Source: Endomicrobium sp. (GTDB taxonomy: Bacteria; Elusimicrobiota; Endomicrobiia; Endomicrobiales; Endomicrobiaceae). Taken from it: DNA of 38,797 nucleotides. Within the stretch, counting starts at the first letter, position 1; the number at the start of each line of letters is the position of its first letter. The notes beneath the pieces were generated by a model that worked only from the letters and a program-made list of their open reading frames with translations, was not told the DNA's origin and did not search any database. Made by a program: the position numbers and the translations under genes. The DNA lies in NCBI GenBank assembly GCA_031264325.1, contig JAISEE010000034.1, positions 1 through 38,797 of the forward strand. Direction: 5' to 3'. Shown one piece after another: positions 6,074-33,310 of this stretch.

Positions 6074-6086
6074 GAAAATAACTCCT

Positions 6087-6117
6087 AGTAAGTAATTTTA
6101 AATTAAAATTACTTACT
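6087..6117. promoter_or_regulatory. perfect inverted repeat (15-bp arms, 1-nt centre) directly upstream of the leuA ribosome-binding site
   Basis: agtaagtaattttaa-a-ttaaaattacttact read directly; AGGAGT lies next to it at 6081-6086 on the minus strand. Confidence 0.75.
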
Positions 6118-7977
6118 TATTAACTAAGTCATCAGTACCTTAAAGTAGCTTCCTAATTGATATTGATAAATATTTTTTAATCATTTACATTAAAATCAAA
6201 ATACAATTTCTGCTTTATACGTCAAAAGGACATTCTTAAACAGTAGATTTGTCAATAAATAATTAAATAAAGTCTGAGCTTGTTTAATTTTCAACATCGC
6301 TTAATGTTTTAATTTTTATATAAACAAAACATAAAATAGCAAAATTATAATATTTAATTGTCAATTTTTTAATTTTACAATTTTATTACAGCTTTAAATG
6401 AATTTTAATCCGTTCCGTCTTTTTCTATCTCTGACAACCATGACATATTACTTTCACTGTTAACTTTTTGGGAATGTTTCTTTACTTCTTGCCATCTGTT
6501 TCTGCAAGAAGTAACGATTTATCAGTTAAATCATGTATGAAAATCTCAAACAACATTTTTTTATATTCCTATCAACTTCATAGGCTTATGACATATTTTT
6601 AATATGATGATTGTGAATAAAAAATCATTAATATCATGCAAAAAATTATTTCAGTCGAGACAAAATAATTTTTTGTTTTGTAATAATTTTACACTCGACT
6701 CTTTATAATATTCTTACATATCGTTCAAGTTATATGATTTTTAATATTTTATCACATTATTTATCAAACGTTATTACCAAATTATGCATATTTAAGCAAA
6801 ATATATACTCAACATTAAATATTATTATATATTAAATTGCTTTATTTTGCAAAAAAATTAACCTAAGTTGTGCTGAAATGTCAAAATTTGTTAAACATAA
6901 AAATACCATCTAGTAAATTAAAATATGAAAAAATCAAACATATATCACAAGCAGAAAAATTAATAAAATATCTTTCAGTTAGGCTTTTTAACTAGTCTAA
7001 CACAACCAGAACCTTTTAAGATAAAAATTGACATAAGAACTTGTTTTAAACCTTATACATTTGCAAAGTAATAGTTTTATCTTTTATTGCTTGAATCATC
7101 ATAAGATATGAATATTTATCAGTTTTTTAAAGTCTTGGGTTTGATAAAGAACAGTTCATCTTGTTTTCACTTTTTAATTTTTTTAATACTCTTTTATTAT
7201 TTATTATTTAAGTTTAGATTGTAATATTTTTTAAATTTTAAAAACATTTCTTAGTAGGTACATACTTAACCATAATCTAATGTCTAAATTGACTTGTTTG
7301 AACGAAAAATCTTCTAACTAAATACAAATAAATACATTTACTGTATGGGATTTTGACCGAGCTATATACAAAATACAAACAAAAACCGCATAATATTGCA
7401 TAATAACCATAGTCAAAAATAATATTTTAAATAACAAAGACAACAGTTTTTTAAAAATAAAAACATATAAAAAATTGATAAGATTTAATTATCACTGCAA
7501 AGCCAATTACGGCGTTGGATAGCAATATCTAAGTTTGACAATAAAATCTAAAAATCTAATTTGTTTCAAAGAGTAATTTTTTATATTACTTTTAGTAGAT
7601 TCTATTTTAATTTTTTGGGTATAAATTTAACTCAAATTATATTATATAACAGCTTATAAAAGATGTTTGTGAAAATATGATAATAATTTTTGCAAATATT
7701 TTAAAATTGATGAATTTATAAAGAATATTTTAAAAAATTGTTTGGTGAGTTTGTTTCAGTATTTAATTAGGCGAATATAAGAAAAATTATTGTTTTTTTT
7801 ACAAAAACTATCAATATGTGTGGCTCATAAGGCTATTATAATAATTACTAAAACAAACAAAAAAATAAATAAAGTTATGGCTAAGTAAATAATGGTTTAT
7901 CAAAAAGAATTATAGTAGAATTAACTAAAAGAGATTGATTATAGTCATATCTTTTTGATTGAAGTATCAATTTTATA

Positions 7978-10113: not shown

Positions 10114-10397
10114 ATTTATCTGTGATCCTTTTTCAGTATAAAAGTAATATTTGAATAAATTTTGTTTATAAAATAAAACTTATAAGTCACAAAGTTGTCA
10201 GAATTACTTATTCTGCTTAATTCAATCTTCGCTGAACATACAAGATTTTTAAATAATTTTTCAAATTTTTTATTTTTGTATACCTGCTAAGTTCTATTAT
10301 TTTATAAAATTCACGCAACTTCGTTGAGTTAGAATTTTTTGCGAATTGTTTTAAAATATTTTTTCTGCTTTATATTATGAGAGACAAAAAAAAATAA

Positions 10398-10544
10398 TTA
10401 ATATTTTTTTGTCAAAATAACGCCAGTTGATATTTTTTGTTTATTTGTAGGCTGAGTTGTAAACAAAATGATTATGCCACAAATAAACAAAAATATTAGG
10501 TATATTCTAATCAAAATGTTTTCTTTTTTATTTTTATCTGACAT
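10398..10544 (-). CDS. 48-aa single-TM small ORF, possibly the N-terminal remnant of a decayed membrane-anchored protein
   Basis: ATG at 10544, stop at 10398; MSDKNKKENILIRIYLIFLFICGIIILFTTQPTNKQKISTGVILTKKY; AGGA upstream. Below the ORF-track cutoff. Confidence 0.4.
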   Translation of the reverse strand: MSDKNKKENILIRIYLIFLFICGIIILFTTQPTNKQKISTGVILTKKY

Positions 10545-10769
10545 CTAGTTTTCCTGCGTTATTTTTTCTTTAAGTCTTTAAGAAAATTCTATTGTTTTTT
10601 TTCTTTTATATTTTATAACTTTTGTGGCTTTATTTAAAACTTTATTTTTCAACTATATATTTTTTCTTTTATATTTATTTTTTGAAGAAAATATATTGTT
10701 TTGAGTATATAGTCTGACTTCTTTTCAATTAGTCATGGAATATATACCGAGAGAATTATGTCATTTTAA

Positions 10770-11640
10770 CATTTTTTTATTTAATTGATTTGTTGTTACC
10801 CCCCCTTTTTTTTAAAAAAAAATAATATTTTGTTATAGTAACCCTCAAAGTTGTGCCGTCTGCTAAAGGTATAATGTTTAAACCATTATACCTTTACACT
10901 TTTTAAAAGGCTTGGAACCTAATACCTAATATTATTTTTATAATTTTATAACTAGAAGTCTCTTATAAACCATCTGTAAAACTTCAAAAACTATTTCACA
11001 ACTGTTGGTCATCTTTTACTTATAAGGTTATTTATAAAAATATCTACTATAGTATAATATTTATTTTTTTGCAGACTTTGATTGTAAGAATAAATTTTGC
11101 GTTTCTAGTAAATAAGCTTAATAAATTTAATAAACTTAACTTATTTGTATTATATTAATTATGGAATCTAAAAATCTATTAGAATTGTAGGTTGTTTTGT
11201 GTAAATTCAAAATAAAAACTTTTCCATTTTTTATTTTTTTCTTTTATATATAAAAATCATAATCATAATAAATAAAATTAAAATTAAATTTTAATTTGTC
11301 TGCAATAAAGTTCTACGGTAACCACTAATTATAAGTAAATATTGCTTTTAACAATGTTTAATTTTTTCTTTGGCTTTCATAATTGCATCTCATGGGTTTA
11401 ATTGGTTCGTATATATGTTACCCTGTTTGTGGATTTACCATTAATTTTTATAAACCTGTCATTTTGAAGTATACCTGATAGGACTAGCTGCTATAAAATT
11501 ATTTTTGACATAATCATCTGAGACTTACACCGCTATATGCTCTTTCTCTGTTTCATTTTCATAATATATATATTTCCTCATAAGCTTTAATTTTTATAAA
11601 TTCCATATTATGATAAGATACGTCTATATAAATTAAAAAA
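10770..11640 (-). pseudogene. ctpA: degraded S41-family C-terminal processing peptidase
   Basis: Minus-strand fragments in order: QLVLSGILQNDRFIKINGKSTNRVTY (PDZ GDRIIKINGKST), FEFTQNNLQF (LDLRNNPGGL-like), then IIPLADGTTLRVTITKYY (IIPLADGSALRLTTAKYY-like); frameshifts and stops between. Lies directly downstream of envC. Confidence 0.75.
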
Positions 11641-11715
11641 ATAAAAAACAATAAACAGTTTTAAACGTAATCGTAATTATTCGATTTTTCAAAATATACA
11701 AATATATTAGTAAAA

Positions 11716-12846
11716 TTATTTATTACATAACCAGAGAAGAGGATTGTCAGGTATGTTATTTTTTCTTATTTCAAAATACAAGATAGCATCTTTTTCGCTT
11801 CCAATGTCAGCTATAATTTCTTCTTTTGACACCTTTTGGCCTTCTTTAACATATATTTTATTTAAAAAGCCATAAACGGAAGTAATGGCATTTCTGTGGG
11901 CTATTATAACAATTTTTCCATAAGAACGAAAAATTCCTGCAAAAACTACTTTACCTGAATTTATACTTTTAACTTTAGCATAGTCCGAAGAGTTTATTTT
12001 TATTCCATTATTTACTATATATGTGTCTAACTCAGGATGTTTAGTTTTGCCAAAATAAGAAATTACATTACCCATAACAGGCCAAATTAACGATTTTTCC
12101 ATTTTTATCTGTGAAATCGATGAGTATATGGTTGTTTCTTTTTTTTTAGAACTTTCAGAGTTAATTTTATTTATCAAAGTTTGCAATGCTTTTGCACTGT
12201 CATTTAAAGCCTTTATTTCTTTTTCCTCATGTCGTCTTTTATCCGAAGTTGTTTTAAGTATTTTCTTCTTTCCTTCTAACAATTTTTTATTTTGAATTAC
12301 GAATTCATTTTTTTTTTGTTTCAAATTTATAAAATTTTTCTTTGATCTTTCCAATTTTTGTATATCATAAGACAAACTTTCAACATATTTTTTTTCCTTT
12401 TCAAGTTTATTTTTACTATATTCTAAATATTTTAATCTTAATTTATATTCTATTGGGTCTTTAGCGTAAGATTTTAAAAGTGTCACTTTATGAAAAAGAT
12501 TTAACTCTTCAAGAATAATCTTATTCCAGTTTGATTTTTTTAAAGAAGCAGAATTGTAGTCCTTTGTAGACTTATTAAGATTTTTTAAAACGGACTCTAT
12601 ATTTTTTGAAATTTTTTTTAATTTTTCTTCAGTTTCTCCTATTGTTTTATTAATGCCTTTCAATTCTTTTTGGTAGATTTTTTCTTGCAAAACAAGTTTA
12701 TCTTTTTTAACCTGTTTTTCTCGTATTGACTGTTTTATATCGGAAAGTTGTTTGATTTCTGATATTTCAGCATAACCTATATAAACAAATATATTTAACA
12801 TAGATGATGCAATAATAAAAATCTTTAAAAAATTATATGTTTTCAT
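11716..12846 (-). CDS. envC: EnvC-like murein hydrolase activator: coiled coil plus degenerate M23/LytM domain
   Basis: ORF 376 aa; signal-like N-terminus, long coiled coil, C-terminal LytM fold (GKVVFAG...YGKIVIIAH...VKEGQKVSKEE...ILYFEI). Confidence 0.85.
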   Translation of the reverse strand: MKTYNFLKIFIIASSMLNIFVYIGYAEISEIKQLSDIKQSIREKQVKKDKLVLQEKIYQKELKGINKTIGETEEKLKKISKNIESVLKNLNKSTKDYNSASLKKSNWNKIILEELNLFHKVTLLKSYAKDPIEYKLRLKYLEYSKNKLEKEKKYVESLSYDIQKLERSKKNFINLKQKKNEFVIQNKKLLEGKKKILKTTSDKRRHEEKEIKALNDSAKALQTLINKINSESSKKKETTIYSSISQIKMEKSLIWPVMGNVISYFGKTKHPELDTYIVNNGIKINSSDYAKVKSINSGKVVFAGIFRSYGKIVIIAHRNAITSVYGFLNKIYVKEGQKVSKEEIIADIGSEKDAILYFEIRKNNIPDNPLLWLCNK

Positions 12847-12861
12847 TTTTTTGTATTTATA

Positions 12862-13626
12862 TCAGTGTCTACATTCTGTTTTGTCAAACATAACTCCAAA
12901 TACACAAGTAAACGATATTATTAGCAGTATTGTTGTTTTTGGTATCAATAAGTTGCAATTAATATACTTGCATACAGTCCAAAATAATAAAAAACCTAAG
13001 CTAGTCGATAAAAGGTATAAAAAAAAATTTTTTGCCTTTTTTAGCATACTTGATCTGGAAATATAGATCAAAACAAATTTTAAAACTAAAAACACGAAAA
13101 AAATTGAAATAATAATAAAATACATTTTTTTATATAACAATAATTGTTTTTGAATTTTTGCATAATGAAGAAAATCTGACGCATTAAATACTACTTCATC
13201 AACTCCTGTAATTCCTTCGATAGTACTTTTTATTCTAATCAAAAAGTCATTGTCTGGTATGGATTTCGGTTTAACAACAACATAAGCCTGTAGGTATTTT
13301 TTAAAATCGTTTAAATCGCTAGATAAAAAAACATTACTTAAAAACTCATTTTTTTCAATTATTTTGCTATAGACTTTGACGACATTTACATATTCTTTTA
13401 CAAGAATTGAATTTTCTGAATTCAAAATTTCTAATACTTTATTCTCATCTTTTGAATTTTTATCAAAAAATACAAATATATTGAGTCCTTCAGATAGAGT
13501 ATTTGCATAATCTTTAATTTGATAATAATGATTTATAATAAAAACAAAGAAAGCGCCTAAAAATACCAATGTAGATAATTTCAGCAATTCTGATATAGTC
13601 CATGTTATTTTTTTTTTGATGTTCAT
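12862..13626 (-). CDS. ftsX: FtsX-like cell division ABC transporter permease
   Basis: ORF 254 aa; N-terminal TM, periplasmic domain with GVDEV motif, C-terminal TM helices; adjacent to envC. Confidence 0.8.
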   Translation of the reverse strand: MNIKKKITWTISELLKLSTLVFLGAFFVFIINHYYQIKDYANTLSEGLNIFVFFDKNSKDENKVLEILNSENSILVKEYVNVVKVYSKIIEKNEFLSNVFLSSDLNDFKKYLQAYVVVKPKSIPDNDFLIRIKSTIEGITGVDEVVFNASDFLHYAKIQKQLLLYKKMYFIIISIFFVFLVLKFVLIYISRSSMLKKAKNFFLYLLSTSLGFLLFWTVCKYINCNLLIPKTTILLIISFTCVFGVMFDKTECRH

Positions 13627-14214
13627 AAACTCTCCACGTATTTTATCATTTTATTTATCCAAAATCATTATCATTATACCTTTTTTTGTATTCAACAGAT
13701 AATTTATCTAATAAAAAGCTGTTTTAAAAAATTTACATCAAAACATTTTCATTCATTTTTTGTATTTAAATAAATGTTTTTTTGAATTTCAACATTATTT
13801 ACAAAATTTTTGTCTTTAAAGTTAATGTGTAAATGATGATATATTAATAAAACCATTCCCATATTTTGTTAAGTGAGGCTATTTTAGTGTCGTCCTCTTT
13901 GAGGGTTTTTGTTGATAGTGTGAGTTGTTTTCTGGTAAAATTCGCTGTGTTCTCTATCATGTGGCATATGTGTGGCCGTGTTGGTTTAAATCGCAAGATT
14001 CATAGAGTGTATTATAAAATATTACATTATTTCTTTTATTATCTGGAAGAACTGTTAGTGTGCTATGTAAACTGTTTGTTAAATCAAAGATAATGACATC
14101 ACCCCATCTAAAGCAAAAATTTTGCTTACTTATAGAACAAACTCAGAAATAAATTTGAAAATTTTTATTAACTTTTCTATATAATATAGAAATTTCCCAA
14201 TTTAACTGATCAAA

Positions 14215-14485
14215 AAAATGTCTTCTTCGCTATCTTTTTTGTTACCTGAAGGAAGTAGAAATTTTGATTTTATCTGCATAAGAGCAGAAGTCATAACAAA
14301 AAATTTTCCTGCCATGTCTAACACTAAGATTAAGTTTTTTTTCTTAAATCAAGATAAGATAGATATTTCAGTTGTAATATCAATTATTTTTATCTCGCTA
14401 ATCTTAAAATCATTTTTTCTTGATAAGGTACAAATATAAGATCCAAAGGATCTTCAAAAGCGTCAAGGTGAATGCCGTATATCAT
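14215..14485 (-). pseudogene. scpA: degraded segregation and condensation protein A
   Basis: Minus strand: MIYGIHLDAFEDPLDLI (FEGPLDLL motif), KNDFKISEIKIIDITTE, YLSYLDL, then DMAGKFFVMTSALMQIKSKFLLPSG in different frames; directly downstream of trpS. Confidence 0.85.
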
Positions 14486-14498
14486 ATATCATAAACCT

Positions 14499-15491
14499 TT
14501 AAAATTTTAATGCCTTTCTGATTTCAGTCATGGTTTTTTGAGCACAGTCTTCAGCTTTTTGACAGCCTTCCATAATCACTTTTTCCAGATAAGCTTTGTC
14601 AGAAATAAGCTTCTTTCTTTTTCCAGATAAAGATTTCATAAACTCAGTAAGTATTTCAGTCAACTGTTTTTTGCATAACGAGCAACCTATCGATCCAACT
14701 TTGCAGTCTTTTTCCCTTTGTTTAAATTTTGAATATTTATCCGAATCTTCTGAAAGTATCTTATAGAATTTTATAACCACACAGCCATCAGGATGTCCTA
14801 AATCATTTTTTTTTATTTTTAAAGGATCTGTAAACATATTTTTTACTTTTTCTTTTATTGCATCACTGTTTTCACCAAGAAATATAGAATTTCCGTAAGA
14901 TTTTGACATTTTTCTCCCATCCGTGCCTGGTACTCTTGTAGATTTAGAAAGTTTAGCTTCAGGTTCAATAAAAATTTTGCCGTAAAAATTATTAAACCGT
15001 CTAGCTATTTCACGAGTAAGCTCCAAATGTAAAAGTTGATCTTCTCCAACAGGAACTAAGTTTGCTCTATAAAGAAGAATATCGGAAGCCATGAGTACGG
15101 GGTATCCCAAAAAACCATAATTATTTAAATTTTTATTTTTTATTTCTCTTACTTGATCTTTATATGTTGGACATCTTTGAAGCCATCCCAAAGGAGTTAT
15201 CATTGAAAGCATTAAAAATAGCTCACTATGTTGATGAATAGCGGATTGTTTAAAAATTACTGATTTCAGCGGATCTAACCCTACTGTAATCCAATCAGCT
15301 ATCATTTCAAAAGTATTTTCACTAATTTTAGACGTGTTAGCATACTCTGTAGTTAAAGCATGCCAATCTGATGCCATGTAGTAACAATCGCATTCTTCTT
15401 GAAGTTTAACCCAGTTGCGAAGTGTTCCAAAATAGTGACCTAAATGAAGTCTTCCTGTCGGGCGCATGCCTGACAATACTTTTTTTTTCAT
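14499..15491 (-). CDS. trpS: tryptophanyl-tRNA synthetase
   Basis: ORF 330 aa; GMRPTGRLHLGHYFG and KMSKS class I motifs. Confidence 0.96.
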   Translation of the reverse strand: MKKKVLSGMRPTGRLHLGHYFGTLRNWVKLQEECDCYYMASDWHALTTEYANTSKISENTFEMIADWITVGLDPLKSVIFKQSAIHQHSELFLMLSMITPLGWLQRCPTYKDQVREIKNKNLNNYGFLGYPVLMASDILLYRANLVPVGEDQLLHLELTREIARRFNNFYGKIFIEPEAKLSKSTRVPGTDGRKMSKSYGNSIFLGENSDAIKEKVKNMFTDPLKIKKNDLGHPDGCVVIKFYKILSEDSDKYSKFKQREKDCKVGSIGCSLCKKQLTEILTEFMKSLSGKRKKLISDKAYLEKVIMEGCQKAEDCAQKTMTEIRKALKF

Positions 15492-15529: not shown

Positions 15530-16177
15530 TTAATAAGAGGCTCCACTAAAAATTATAACAAAAAAATTAATGGTAGGATATAACAAATTCCATATTGCAT
15601 CTGAATATGATAGCAAAAGTAATAATACTGTTAAACAAATAAGAGGATTGATGTTCATGTATTTTGTCGCTATATCTCTAGGTATGAAAAAAGTTATAAT
15701 TTTTGATCCGTCTAAAGGAGGGATGGGTATAAGATTTATTATTGCAAGAATAACATTTATAATAAGCATTATATACAAAAACGATTGTATTGCGGCCCCA
15801 AACCCTGCTTCAAAGTTTGGAAATATCCTTATAAGACGAATTCCAAGTCCTGAAACTAAAGCAAGTAGTAAATTTGCAACTGGTCCTGCTAGAGAAACAA
15901 GAGATATATCTAATTTTGGATTTTTAAAATTTCTGTAATCTATTGGTACAGGCTTTACCCAACCGAAAAGGATAGGAAATTTTAAAAATAAAAGTATTGC
16001 TGGGAGAATAATGCTTCCAAACAACTCTATGTGAGATAGAGGGTTTAAAGTAATCCATCCCGTAAGTCTTGCAGTATCATCTCCTCTTAAGTGTGCAGCA
16101 TATCCATGGGAAATTTCATGAATAATAGTTGAGAAAATAAAAACCACAATATATATAAATACGGTTAGTACGGTCAT
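15530..16177 (-). CDS. site-2 protease family (M50) membrane metalloprotease
   Basis: ORF 215 aa; HEISH zinc motif, NLIPIPPLDGS motif, multiple TM segments. Confidence 0.92.
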   Translation of the reverse strand: MTVLTVFIYIVVFIFSTIIHEISHGYAAHLRGDDTARLTGWITLNPLSHIELFGSIILPAILLFLKFPILFGWVKPVPIDYRNFKNPKLDISLVSLAGPVANLLLALVSGLGIRLIRIFPNFEAGFGAAIQSFLYIMLIINVILAIINLIPIPPLDGSKIITFFIPRDIATKYMNINPLICLTVLLLLLSYSDAIWNLLYPTINFFVIIFSGASY

Positions 16178-16304: not shown

Positions 16305-16487
16305 TTAAATAAAAAGCTTAATATTTGTAAAAATAAATAATAAAACAGTTATCATAAGAGAAAAATTTATATCTCTCCTTTGTGGCTTCACTATAATGAC
16401 AAGATCTCTTGATAAAAAATTTGTTATCAGAGAGGAATAGATTTTGAAAAGTGAATGTTTACGAGTGTTTGTGACTTTAAACTTCAT
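16305..16487 (-). pseudogene. 60-aa fragment, possibly the N-terminus of an M23-family membrane-anchored peptidase
   Basis: FLSRDLVIIVKPQRRDINFSLMITVLLFIF resembles the (F)SR.LTVMIIPH....S TM start of M23 peptidases; no downstream domain. Confidence 0.25.
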
Positions 16488-16559
16488 AGTTATGATAAAT
16501 AAATTTTGAAGTTTTACTGAATATCATCATAAAAGCTTTATCGTTTTTTTCAAAAAAAA

Positions 16560-16839
16560 AAAACAGAAATGTCAACTGTTATCTTCAAGGTTCCTGTAGA
16601 AGTAAGTATGTTTCTGCACTTGTTAGATTTATCATTTTTAATTGCTATATTTTTAATTTCGGTATTTATTTTCGTATATTCTAAAATTGTTCGGGTAACA
16701 TAATTACGATCGATTAAATTTTTAGTTACTTAGCTATTATAGATTTAAAAGTACGTCACCCATGCATACAGCGTTAAATGCAGTATTTATACTTTTCTTT
16801 GCCTGCCAAAATGTCAAACAATTCTTGATCAAGTCTCAT
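16560..16839 (-). pseudogene. possible degraded TlyA-like rRNA methyltransferase (S4 plus FtsJ type)
   Basis: Minus strand: MRLDQELFDILAGK (S4-like start), then in another frame AVCMGDVLLN (IMxGDVLVN), then TYLLLQE / LKITVDIS (GFTDYLLQxGAxKVYAVDV). Confidence 0.45.
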
Positions 16840-16944
16840 TTTCTGTTTATGTAATGAGTGATGAGTAGGCATAATTTAATTTTTATAAAAAATTTAAATA
16901 TCCTTCGCATTTATATTCATTATCAAAATATGCCTCACTGATTC

Positions 16945-17187
16945 CTAAAAAATATTTATGGCTTTATAATTATCTTCTTTTTGATACAGGCCTGAAAATA
17001 AAAGTTCAACTTTTTTACAGATTATTTTTTTTGACAAAAAAATTTTTGATGAAACAGTTTTTATGTTACTTTTACTATCAGGTAATCTCCAAAGTTGAAT
17101 ACTCAACGATATCGTAGAAGTTTTTTGTGATGTCTTGTAGTTTACGAGATGCTTATTTTGCAGTATCGTTAAATCAAATCGTATCAT
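16945..17187 (-). CDS. 80-aa ORF of unknown function directly downstream of spoIID; may be a gene fragment
   Basis: ORF track; starts 7 nt after the spoIID stop, suggesting translational linkage; no confident family. Confidence 0.35.
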   Translation of the reverse strand: MIRFDLTILQNKHLVNYKTSQKTSTISLSIQLWRLPDSKSNIKTVSSKIFLSKKIICKKVELLFSGLYQKEDNYKAINIF

Positions 17188-18321: not shown

Positions 18322-18858
18322 ACTTTTCCTTATTTTTGTTATAAAATTTACTGTATACGCAATATTTTTGTATATTTTTTACATATAATACACTTTATAC
18401 ACCTTTTTATCTAATTGGAGAGCTTTTATTCTTATAAAATTAAATCGCAATATAAAAACTTTAGTTCCATAATTTATATACTAAAAATTTGTAATCTGTT
18501 TTATCAATCCATACTCTGATACTGACTTGAAAATAATAAGATCATAAAAAAATAAAAATCATTACTTTTTTCAAGTCTAAAATTATGCTATTTGCAGTTT
18601 TTGTCTTTCCAATATTTATAACTATAATAACTATAAATAAAATTTGGATTTTTGCAGAAAAGAGTTTAATTCTTTAATATACCTTTTTTGTATTTTTAAT
18701 CGTACTAAATACTCTCTAAATACTTGAGATTACATTAATAAAAATAATACTGTATATATTTTGTAAAATTTTTACAACAAAAGCCAAACTAAGGAGTACA
18801 GCATATATACAATAAAGTTTTATTTTTTTGAGTTAAGCGGATTATACATTTTATTTTT

Positions 18859-28031: not shown

Positions 28032-28077
28032 ATCAGTTCCTCTTCCTCTTTTTTATGTTAAGTGTATTCTTAAAGTA

Positions 28078-28109
28078 TATAAATATATTTAAATTTAAAT
28101 ATATTTATA
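28078..28109. repeat. 32-bp perfect AT palindrome in the atp operon leader
   Basis: tataaatatatttaaa|tttaaatatatttata read directly. Confidence 0.8.
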
Positions 28110-28118
28110 ATTTATATT

Positions 28119-28146
28119 TTAATTATAGTCAGTTAATTATAGTCAG
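28119..28146 (-). promoter_or_regulatory. tandem 14-bp duplication carrying two TATAAT boxes upstream of atpB
   Basis: Plus strand ttaattatagtcag x2; minus strand CTGACTATAATTAACTGACTATAATTAA. Confidence 0.55.
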
Positions 28147-28805
28147 TGTTGAAATATTCTATGAATTTTATCATTTATTTAACTATTTAACACGTTTAAA
28201 TCCGTTCAAAAGCATAACAATACTCTTTTTAGCATTTATATTTTAAGAATTCAACTCCAAAATTTTTAAATGCTTATAGATATAAATTTCGTTTTGTCAA
28301 ATTTTTTTGAAAACAAGTACCAAGTTGTTTATAGGTTTCTAGATAATCATTTTTTCGTATAACACTCCAACTTTCAACAAAAGCTATGAATATCCTTCAA
28401 TAGTCTTTTAAAATGCCATTTATAAAATAAACTAATAAAATTTTTCACGTTGAAATATATAGAATTAAGCATTAATCATATTATAAATATACTGGTAACT
28501 GGCAATGATAAAAGTTAATAAGTATGGCATTAAAAAATTAAATTTATTCCAAATGTATTACTAATCCTTTTTCGATATAAACGCATCAATTAGTTTTACC
28601 ATTTGATAGTTATGTTACTGTTAACAAACCTGTTTAAATATATTATCTTAAAACATACTATATTAATTATACAAAATTCAGAGTTAAATTTCAAAATTCA
28701 GAAAATTTTTTTCTACCAAACAAGCCATTATCGTCAGTTTTTTATTTATCAATAAAAAAACAATAAACTTATAAACATTAAATTTAAAATATTTCGACAT
28801 ATATT

Positions 28806-28988
28806 TTGGCATTAAATAAGGAGAATTATTTTATTTTACCGTATAAAAAATTGTGTTTCTCAATTCACAGGCATGAAAAAACAAATCTTGTATGCAATAA
28901 ATCTGCACTAAAACATTTCATGAGCAATTTGCCAGACAAAAAAACAACTATGATAGACTATAAAACAAACTTTAACAGGTTTTTTTAA
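28806..28988 (+). pseudogene. 60-aa fragment, possibly the C-terminus of an alpha/beta hydrolase
   Basis: NLVCNKSALKHFMSNLPDKKTTMIDYKTNFNRFF resembles the D.IV.N..A..FF..L..KDKT.IEY....H.F end of S33-type hydrolases; start is TTG and upstream domain is absent. Confidence 0.3.
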
Positions 28989-30345
28989 ATAATTTTTATT
29001 TATACTATTTTATATGTTTATAGAGTTTGTTTCTCTTCTATAAGTAAAATTAAATCTATTAAAAGCTAAAAACATAACTATAGGAAAGATAAGATGCGAA
29101 TTTTAAAAAAATCATACGAAAATAATAAAACAAACTGATTGACAAAAAAAATGGAAGTAATGCTAGACTACTAAGTAACGTGTCTGTCTTTTATATTTTG
29201 TATCCTAAAGTTAAAACAAAAAAAATTAAAGACAAGGGAAATTGTAAAACCTGTTATGTTTTTGTAATATCATAATGTCAAAATATTTATTTTCAGTATG
29301 AGCTTTCCATTAAACAAAGTTGTGTTTTAATGTGTTTCAATTTAATAAAAAGTATTAATGATTTTCTCAAAACGAATATGTGTTAATATATTAAAATAAA
29401 TGAACCCTTTCAGCACAATAGAGTTTATGTTTAATTATTTCTAAAATTGAAACCCACGTTAAATATTCTGGAGGACCAACTATTGTTTTTTTGCTTTATA
29501 TTTTTGTTATATATTATATTATATATAACAAAAATTGATAGAAATGAAACAATAAATATACATACATATATTTACATACATATTTACATATTATAGATTG
29601 TCAAAATATTGTCAATAATTTATTGTTGACCTTATTTTTATAATACAAGCAAGTGTATTTGAGTATATTTCATAGTGTAGTAAGAACGATAAACACTAAA
29701 GCAAAACCAAGTCATGTTACTTTTCTATATACCTTGATACCTTATATGACAAGGAGGGATATGCTAAAATCATAAGCCATAAAATAGCAAGGTAAATTTT
29801 TTTATAAAAAACATAAATAAAGTGAGATCTATAAGTTTCATCATATATAATCGAAAAGTTATTAAAGAAATTGTGTTTTTGTTAAAATTTAATTATTTAT
29901 CAATATAGTATAAAACTATGTCATAATATATAAATTTTTTAAGAAAATTGTTTAAGCTTGTAAGTTTGAAAGAAAAAAACGGAATGAAAAATAAACCAGT
30001 AGCAATAAAAGTAAAACTACGGATAAAATACAAATGGGTTTATTTTTAAATAAAACAAAATCGTCGCAATAAAAAAATTTTATACTTTTTTTAATAAATG
30101 CAATGACATTATATTTTCATTTATGTTAGAGTTCGTACTTAATGTGGAAAAATATAATTTTTGATACTTTTAAAATTTTTTTATTAAGTATTTATTTATA
30201 AAGTATTAGTAAAATGTTGATACAACACCTAAATATGTTTACTGATTAGCTTAACAGAAGCCGTATGATCTTTGGCAAAATTATAGTTATAGGCAAAGTG
30301 TTTATCATAATTAAAAACAATAAAATTGAAAGATAAGGATTTAAG

Positions 30346-30852: not shown

Positions 30853-30989
30853 AACACAGCGATATTGTCCTTCTATAACTGAAAAAGCCTTATACTGTAT
30901 CTGAATCTGATACAATGTTAAAAACAGTTATAAATAATATAAACTATACACAACACACATTTCCCACAAAATATATAACGCTTTTCACA

Positions 30990-31640
30990 TTCACGACTAG
31001 GGGTGTCAACTTTTATTATCGTAACATATCTCTCAAGTTTCTCAAAAAAATTTTACATATACTTATACTGTGTTTCATCAATTTGAATTGTCTTGCTCTT
31101 ATGTCCACCGTATTAATAAACCCATCTTGTCAAGCTACGCAAACAACACGTCATGCTTGTAACAACACCAGCCCATTGCTAAGTATGGTACCAGGGGAGA
31201 GGTTTATAACTTACTTCACAAGAACCCAAAGTACTATATAACGCTATAACAGCGCCATATCTTTCATGAGGTGTTTCTTACTTGACGCCAACTCACGCAC
31301 TGACACCAATAAATATTTCCAAACTTTACTATCTACTCATGACCCTTTATCCACACACTAAAAGCTTTTTCAATATGTCAAAATGTCAAACTATGAAAGA
31401 ACACCTTCCATTTATCTTTTCCAAATGCAATATCGCTATCTCGTTATTTGTAATATAATTTTATTTCTTTTGCCGTTGTATGTAACATCTAAATATTTAC
31501 TCATATACACTTACTTTATCTCTAACCCTTATCGCTTAGTTTTATATTTTCACACACTAAACATTTAACACTCCACGCTATTCACTTCGCATGCTCTTTC
31601 ATAAATACAGCATCGTTAAACTTCATCTATCTTTTCTTAC
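30990..31640 (-). pseudogene. candidate degraded transposase (IS1-like)
   Basis: Minus-strand frames: KCLVCENIKLSDKG (zinc-ribbon-like), MEGVLSF...AFSVWIKGHE (SFRSIAR...WIKKH-like), HKSKTIQIDETQ / ICKIFLRNLRD (K..T..IE..N..R.FLARLRR-like); many stops. Confidence 0.4.
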
Positions 31641-31974
31641 TCACTACTAGACATTTATCGATATATTTTCTTCGTATTTATAGTCATCATTATATTGCCT
31701 CTGTTGTTTATTGTGTCCCATTTTATTCTTGTTATCTCTTTATTTCTAAGTACCATATTTCTTTTTTGCAATACATTTTCTCTTACTTTTTTATCAGTTG
31801 ACTTTATTACTATCTTTATTTTTTATCCTTCTTAATAGTTCAAATATTTACTAGATGTAAAAAACTTTTTTGGAAAATTTATATGATATAAAACTATGGA
31901 TATGTAACAAAAATATGAAAATTTATGATAAAAAACAAATCATATATATATCATACAATGCAAAATACAAAAAT

Positions 31975-32796
31975 CGAAGAATACAAAAGAGTCTTAAAAA
32001 AATACATGGATAATTTGGAAAATAGGTTCTTAGCATAATTCTACCGCATGAAAATAATATTATGTTAATTAAATTTTGACTATTGGGTACCTAACGATAT
32101 CACTTGGCATAAATAAAATCCAATACAAACTTTTTAGATACTCGCTTCATAAATGCGACAGAAGCTTTTTCCTGGTGTTCAAAATTGAAAAATCATAAAA
32201 ATATACTTTTAATCATAAATTGATAAGCACAGTTTAACAATGGTGATAAATAAATGACCTCAGTCTGAAATATTAATTTATGTATTGTGGTAATAAAAGA
32301 ATTGAAGACAAAGACGGCAAAAAGGTCTATTCCAGACAAAAGAAGCCATAGAAATTTTAAAAGTGGCAACTCTTTCAACTACAAAACAAAACGACGTAGT
32401 TTTATGCCCCTTCTTTTTGGCACAGACATAACAAGCAGTCGCTAAAAGTTTTGTCATAAATTTATCAGCCTAAAAAATTGTATACAGATATAATAACAAT
32501 AACGAGAATAAAAAAAACATAAATAGTTTATTATCTAAAGGCAGTCTGGATTGAAACGCTTAAAAAAACAATAAAAATTTTTTTGTAAATCTCATTAAAA
32601 AAATATTATAGGTATAGGTGAATTTTTTATATACCCACTAAAAGATGTAGATATAATAAACAAACTAAAGCTTTATCAGGCGGTAATTTACATTATGAAG
32701 ATACTAACCGGCTATATCCATAAAATAGAAATTATTATTCAACAAGCATTGTCCCATGTAAACAAGTTGAAATTATGGTTGTACTTAAAACAATAA
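31975..32796 (+). pseudogene. degraded CcrM/HinfI-type adenine-specific DNA methyltransferase with C-terminal RAMA-like segment
   Basis: Plus-strand fragments in order: EYKRVLKKY; FDYWVPNDITWHK..NPIQ; KYTFNHK; NKRIEDKDGKKVYSRQKKP; EAIEILKVATLSTTKQNDVVLCPFF....QAVAKSFV; ALSGGNLHYED; GYIHKIEIIIQQALS..N...W. These mirror NDIIWHK.NP, KDKDGKK.H.TQKP, GDVVLDPFFGTGTTGAVAK, and GSIHK...QQA.SCNGW.YW. Confidence 0.85.
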
Positions 32797-33122
32797 ATTG
32801 CCATTGCTTGATGATTTGAAAATAAAGTATACAAAAATATATCATAACAAAGTACAAAATTTAATTTTTTTGTCATACTTTACTTGTGGGACTATCTTAG
32901 TGGCTATTGTCTTGTTTAAAATTTACCATAAAGTGTGTAACTCTATAAAAAAAATACTAAATATGTGATATCATTATGATTATTACAACTTTTTACAAAA
33001 AAAACTATCACTCAAAAAAACAAATGAAAATGATGACAAAAGTATTAAAATATTAATGTGGTCAAGCAAAAAATTGAACACAGTAATACAGTATATACAA
33101 ATTTCAAATTACATGAACATTT

Positions 33123-33150
33123 TTAACTGTTGATTACAATCAACAGTTAA
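33123..33150. repeat. perfect hairpin-forming inverted repeat, 12-bp arms, 4-nt loop
   Basis: ttaactgttgat-taca-atcaacagttaa read directly. Confidence 0.8.
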
Positions 33151-33310
33151 TGTAAAAAAAACCAAAATAAAATTATAAACAACAAATGAGTAATTTGATA
33201 AGACTTATAATGCTCAATAATTTTAAACTACTATCGTTTCTTGTCAGATGATATATATTAAAAACCATTACAACATCTCAATATTCAGAAACATAAAACA
33301 TATCAAACAA

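Follow-up and report, generated by a model that had tools for sequence, protein, structure and literature searches.

The locus downstream of trpS raises the question of whether its bacterium has lost the SMC-ScpAB condensin, or whether a working scpA gene only looks broken. Condensin is a ring-shaped machine in three parts that folds and separates bacterial chromosomes, and SMC-ScpAB is found very widely among bacteria other than those that rely on MukBEF. We find that the locus very probably holds a decaying scpA pseudogene, as part of the complete loss of SMC-ScpAB from an endosymbiont genome. The window (the whole stretch of DNA analysed, 38,797 bases) is one complete contig, C10, of a draft genome (G000) of 802 kb in 34 contigs that is scored 75% complete. 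The TrpS encoded in the window shares 88-90% identity with its counterparts in Candidatus Endomicrobiellum devescovinae and Endomicrobium sp., which indicates that the bacterium belongs to Endomicrobiellum, the endosymbionts of termite gut flagellates. This flagellate endosymbiont genus was described from termite gut metagenomes (PMC11257099).

An scpA relic between trpS and ftsX

A sequence-only reading had placed an scpA pseudogene right after trpS on the minus strand, and all the peptides it quoted are present between trpS and the ftsX-like gene, in a gene-free stretch of 872 bases (Table 1). When stops are read as X, one frame of 14001-14483 matches the Pfam SMC_ScpA profile (PF02616; E=1.6e-6, 28.7 bits, with a curated cut-off of 24.6 bits) over profile positions 5-69 of 232. 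We also wrote a frameshift-tolerant protein-to-DNA alignment for this analysis, with the intact ScpA encoded by a close relative, G007, as query. The alignment scored 314, compared to 29-51 for 10 dinucleotide shuffles, with identity in 95 of 165 columns (58%) over ScpA residues 1-159 (window 14485-14025), consistent with the earlier claims that the N-terminal half of ScpA is matched and that the gene is inactivated. The relic continues about 190 bases beyond the extent first proposed, 14215-14485, to ~14025. 'At least two' frameshifts was likewise too low a count: breaks lie near 14431, 14415, 14363, 14343, 14218 and 14037, and the relic further contains one or more in-frame stops and lacks ~10 internal codons. 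Alignments to seven relatives gave 5-6 frameshifts in all cases plus one stop, most with identical breaks and some with slightly moved ones. By sequence match, then, the relic belongs to the ScpA family, and it holds no open frame with both ScpA terminal domains, given 5-6 frameshifts, a stop and the absence of the C-terminal half.

Table 1. Features at the scpA locus (positions in the window)
Feature	Position	Strand	Remarks
M23 peptidase with coiled coil (EnvC/NlpD-like)	11716..12846	-	intact
ftsX-like gene	12862..13626	-	intact, downstream; without a Pfam match; name assigned from gene order and sequence reading
Collapsed remainder	13627..14024	-	in relatives, this interval spans ~1 kb and carries the 3' half of scpA plus the entire scpB
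scpA pseudogene	14025..14485	-	remnant of ScpA residues 1-159; SMC_ScpA profile, frameshift-tolerant alignment, codon-position pattern
trpS	14499..15491	-	intact upstream neighbour; 90% identical to G007 TrpS; purifying selection
M50 site-2 protease family gene	15530..16177	-	intact; 86% identical to G007

The gene order M50 protease-trpS-scpA-scpB, cited as recurrent in the sequence-only reading, is real in relatives; in G012 the intact order is trpS-scpA-scpB-ftsX-M23, with ftsX coming after scpB. In the ~400 bases before ftsX in the window, neither the 3' half of scpA nor scpB is recognisable, the DNA score being no better than those of shuffles. A candidate ScpB tail at ~13957-13884 (24 residues) scored 41-48 against three relatives, with shuffles reaching 40; it was gone with other relatives and at the DNA level, and we do not claim it.

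The mode of decay was read from substitutions at sites where G007, G028 and G034 agree and the window differs. Changes at codon positions 1, 2 and 3 of the relic number 28, 27 and 31 in 131, 138 and 120 sites, showing no codon-position bias (equal rates, p=0.47), compared to 16, 10 and 40 in 312, 318 and 273 sites for trpS (equal rates, p=1e-7), and the two patterns differ (p=0.003). The even change in the relic, set against mostly third-position change in trpS, points to neutral decay of scpA, at a site where all three relatives have an intact orthologue. Since the third-position excess of a living gene would persist under reading errors or programmed frameshifting, both are disfavoured, and on this evidence the relic is a product of neutral decay.

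It is barely conceivable that scpA is functional and only looks broken because sequencing or assembly introduced indels at homopolymers. The assembly is a metagenomic draft and several of the breaks do lie in A/T-rich sequence; however, the flanks consist of thirty genes, 25.4 kb of coding sequence, all unbroken, compared to 5-6 breaks in the 460 bases of the relic. Reading errors do not produce even change over codon positions, half of scpA is missing, smc has decayed too and relatives show similar decay. In practice, sequencing indels are excluded by the evenness across codon positions, the large deletions and the parallel decay seen in other species.

An 83-residue open frame within the relic, spanning part of the ScpA N-terminal domain, would allow scpA to be expressed through programmed frameshifting, or a short N-terminal peptide to be functional. 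We give this next to no credence: the pattern of substitutions is flat, the 5-6 shifts go in both directions and are joined by a stop, and the partner SMC is itself a relic. The C-terminal winged-helix domain of ScpA is required for ring closure, and here it is gone.

Other parts of the window are eroding as well. Relics of queA (16336-17125, minus strand, E=3e-11) and queH (18444-18836, minus strand, E=7e-15) flank an intact spoIID gene, and both are intact at the corresponding places in G007. These relics beside that of scpA show that the queuosine pathway is decaying too and that the scpA relic is one among several pseudogenes of the contig. Only 65% of the window is occupied by intact coding sequence; extended stretches that are poor in genes and mostly low in G+C (6074-7977, 10114-11715, 28032-30345 and 30853-33309) are probably older pseudogenes, and Pfam scans of six long gene-poor stretches gave no match in the frames scanned.

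The other condensin subunits and a possible substitute

The sequence-only reading had proposed looking for an intact scpA elsewhere and for smc, scpB or mukBEF. No intact scpA was found elsewhere in the 802 kb draft (75% complete), nor was any match to ScpB. With full-length G007 SMC as query, the only matches in G000 were fragments in several frames at C3:19307-19881. They belong to an smc relic (G000:C3:19307-19884) that immediately follows intact genes for KBL (90% identical) and GNAT (88% identical), in an order conserved with G007, whose smc is intact. The part of the relic that still aligns, residues 916-1153, is interrupted by 11 frameshifts, and deletions have removed most of residues 1-914. 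Condensin genes are thus broken at two separate loci, scpA and smc, and scpB is missing: neither partner of ScpA is encoded in recognisable, intact form. The best SMC_N match in G000, a 585-residue frame, and likewise those in relatives, were taken as other ATPases; it was not among the hits of the full-length SMC query.

The same reading had left open whether SMC-ScpAB was lost or replaced; the data support loss, and replacement by MukB or MksB finds no support. An intact SMC-ScpAB copy, or a transferred MukBEF/MksBEF system, in the unassembled part of the genome strikes us as very unlikely. By marker count the draft is only ~75% complete, and genes are often transferred horizontally in the genus (PMC11257099). 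However, a MukB-type ATPase that could serve as a replacement was found in 0 of the 42 genus drafts, themselves incomplete, with a profile that detected both control homologues, from E. coli and Corynebacterium glutamicum, and the other scpAB-less lineages have no second ScpA or full-length SMC that we could find.

The weight to be given to such non-detections can be gauged from rpoB, which was not found in 21 of the 42 genus drafts, G000 included. This is an essential gene, and its absence from half of the drafts makes non-detection of a gene weak evidence; our argument for condensin loss consequently rests on relics and closed-up gene junctions. The gene is missing even from drafts scored >90% complete (e.g. 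G007 and G014), and its absence is probably a gap of binning or assembly, but a systematic one.

Condensin loss and the fate of ParABS across the genus

Intact scpA and scpB are present in 25 of the 42 genus drafts, including the nearest relatives G007, G028 and G034 (ScpA of 287, 287 and 279 residues; smc open frames of 1158, 1164 and 1103 residues, respectively). All 14 genera of the family, and all 32 of its near-complete genomes, gave a ScpA match, and we therefore take intact as the ancestral state. Elsewhere in the genus, G004 and G024 carry multi-frame relics of scpA, scpB and smc, and G009 relics of scpA and smc. In G003 the trpS-ftsX gap has closed to 100 bases and smc is a relic, and the gaps in G033 and G039 are 110 and 204 bases, with no scpA or scpB in between.

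We built a tree on TrpS and FtsK, having dropped rpoB as a marker for its absence from half of the drafts. The condensin-less branches on this tree are G000, a G003-G004-G009 group beside the intact G012, G024, G039 and G033, and parsimony gives five changes once species in which the genes simply went undetected are set aside. With the positions of G024 and G039 uncertain and a long branch leading to G033, we take the tree to indicate that condensin was lost on at least four separate lines. Long TrpS/FtsK branches are common in condensin-less lineages (0.14 for G000 and 0.09 for G030, vs. 0.007 for G007 and 0.02 for G028), as if protein evolution had sped up alongside erosion. A Mann-Whitney comparison of genome size with condensin loss gave p=0.0003, a descriptive value uncorrected for kinship and draft completeness. 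One draft, G026 (4 contigs, ~200 kb, 66% complete), has no detectable scpA, scpB, smc, ParB, FtsK or TrpS and represents either a genome fragment or a case of extreme reduction.

Despite having no condensin, G000 has intact ParA, ParB, parS and FtsK. The ParA frame is open, ParB is open as a 297-residue frame, a perfect parS, TGTTTCACGTGAAACA, lies just upstream at C6:27687, and FtsK is intact as a 734-residue frame. Differences from G007 at codon positions 1, 2 and 3 number 18, 9 and 54 in parA, 24, 19 and 60 in parB, and 51, 48 and 118 in ftsK. This concentration of changes in third positions indicates that the three genes are under selection. ParB, the SMC loader, has thus outlived the SMC complex in G000. 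In G003, a frameshift splits parA into two frames (L183 2300-2993) and parB is intact; in G004, parB is reduced to a short relic (G004:C7:32849-33046). The broken parA and the parB relic place ParABS decay in species already without condensin, which suggests, from few cases, that condensin may be lost first and ParABS later. For the genus as a whole, we lean only slightly towards the view that condensin is the first segregation part to be lost, repeatedly and independently, and that a ParABS system without an SMC to load persists for a while and then decays.

A history consistent with these observations can be proposed for G000. Relatives show that the ancestor carried trpS, scpA and scpB side by side, with an intact smc at another locus. 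In a small population confined inside a flagellate, selection may have weakened until one condensin gene was inactivated; with the ring lost, the remaining two subunits would have been functionless and free to decay. Observed in G000 is that scpA has gained frameshifts and deletions at a neutral rate, scpB has vanished from its place and smc has been cut to its frameshifted remnant; ParA, ParB, the perfect parS and FtsK are still intact, with change in the genes mostly at third positions. Segregation of the small chromosome would now depend on ParABS acting at the origin and on FtsK acting at the septum, ParB would no longer load SMC, and ParABS may tend to decay next, as in G003 and G004.

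Comparison with other condensin losses

The process behind this loss, the erosion of genes in an endosymbiont, is nothing out of the ordinary, but the machine affected is unusually central and the relatives provide a useful series for comparison. Condensin is present in some species and absent from their near sisters, relics are found at every stage and ParB-parS is sometimes kept. The genus could therefore show what condensin is needed for in a small genome, the order in which segregation genes can be lost, and whether FtsK and ParABS change after condensin loss. If condensin is indeed lost first, the genus would offer a natural time series in which the duties of ParB, origin partition vs. 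SMC loading, could be separated from sequence.

A 2024 study of Endomicrobia reported no notable difference in DNA replication and repair genes (PMC11257099), and neither 'SMC' nor 'pseudogen' occurs in its main text. Because genes for chromosome organisation do erode, the statement of no notable erosion of replication and repair genes in Endomicrobiellum needs qualifying. The progressive gene loss described there for flagellate endosymbionts concerns the same genus, and condensin loss adds to it. In the literature searched, we found no report of condensin loss in Endomicrobia, nor of MukB loss in Buchnera.

Condensin loss in G000 is a clear new case, and comparable losses are known from other shrinking symbiont genomes. 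SMC-ScpAB has been lost in the Coxiella-like tick endosymbiont CLEAA and in Baumannia BGSS (PMC4494066), which, like G000, are obligately host-associated, have shrinking genomes and have lost the SMC complex together with further genes for chromosome maintenance. CLEAA has additionally lost ftsK, topoisomerase IV and dnaA, whereas G000 keeps FtsK and a complete ParABS system; unlike in CLEAA and Baumannia BGSS, the relics are still readable here and condensin has disappeared repeatedly, in several lines of a single genus. The effect of losing SMC-ScpAB is severe in B. subtilis (PMC4634966), while deletion of smc in Corynebacterium glutamicum is tolerated with mild effect, FtsK then becoming essential (PMC11898615). 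These C. glutamicum mutants resemble G000 in having ParB and FtsK without SMC; they are engineered and free-living, however, whereas the loss in G000 is natural and fixed.
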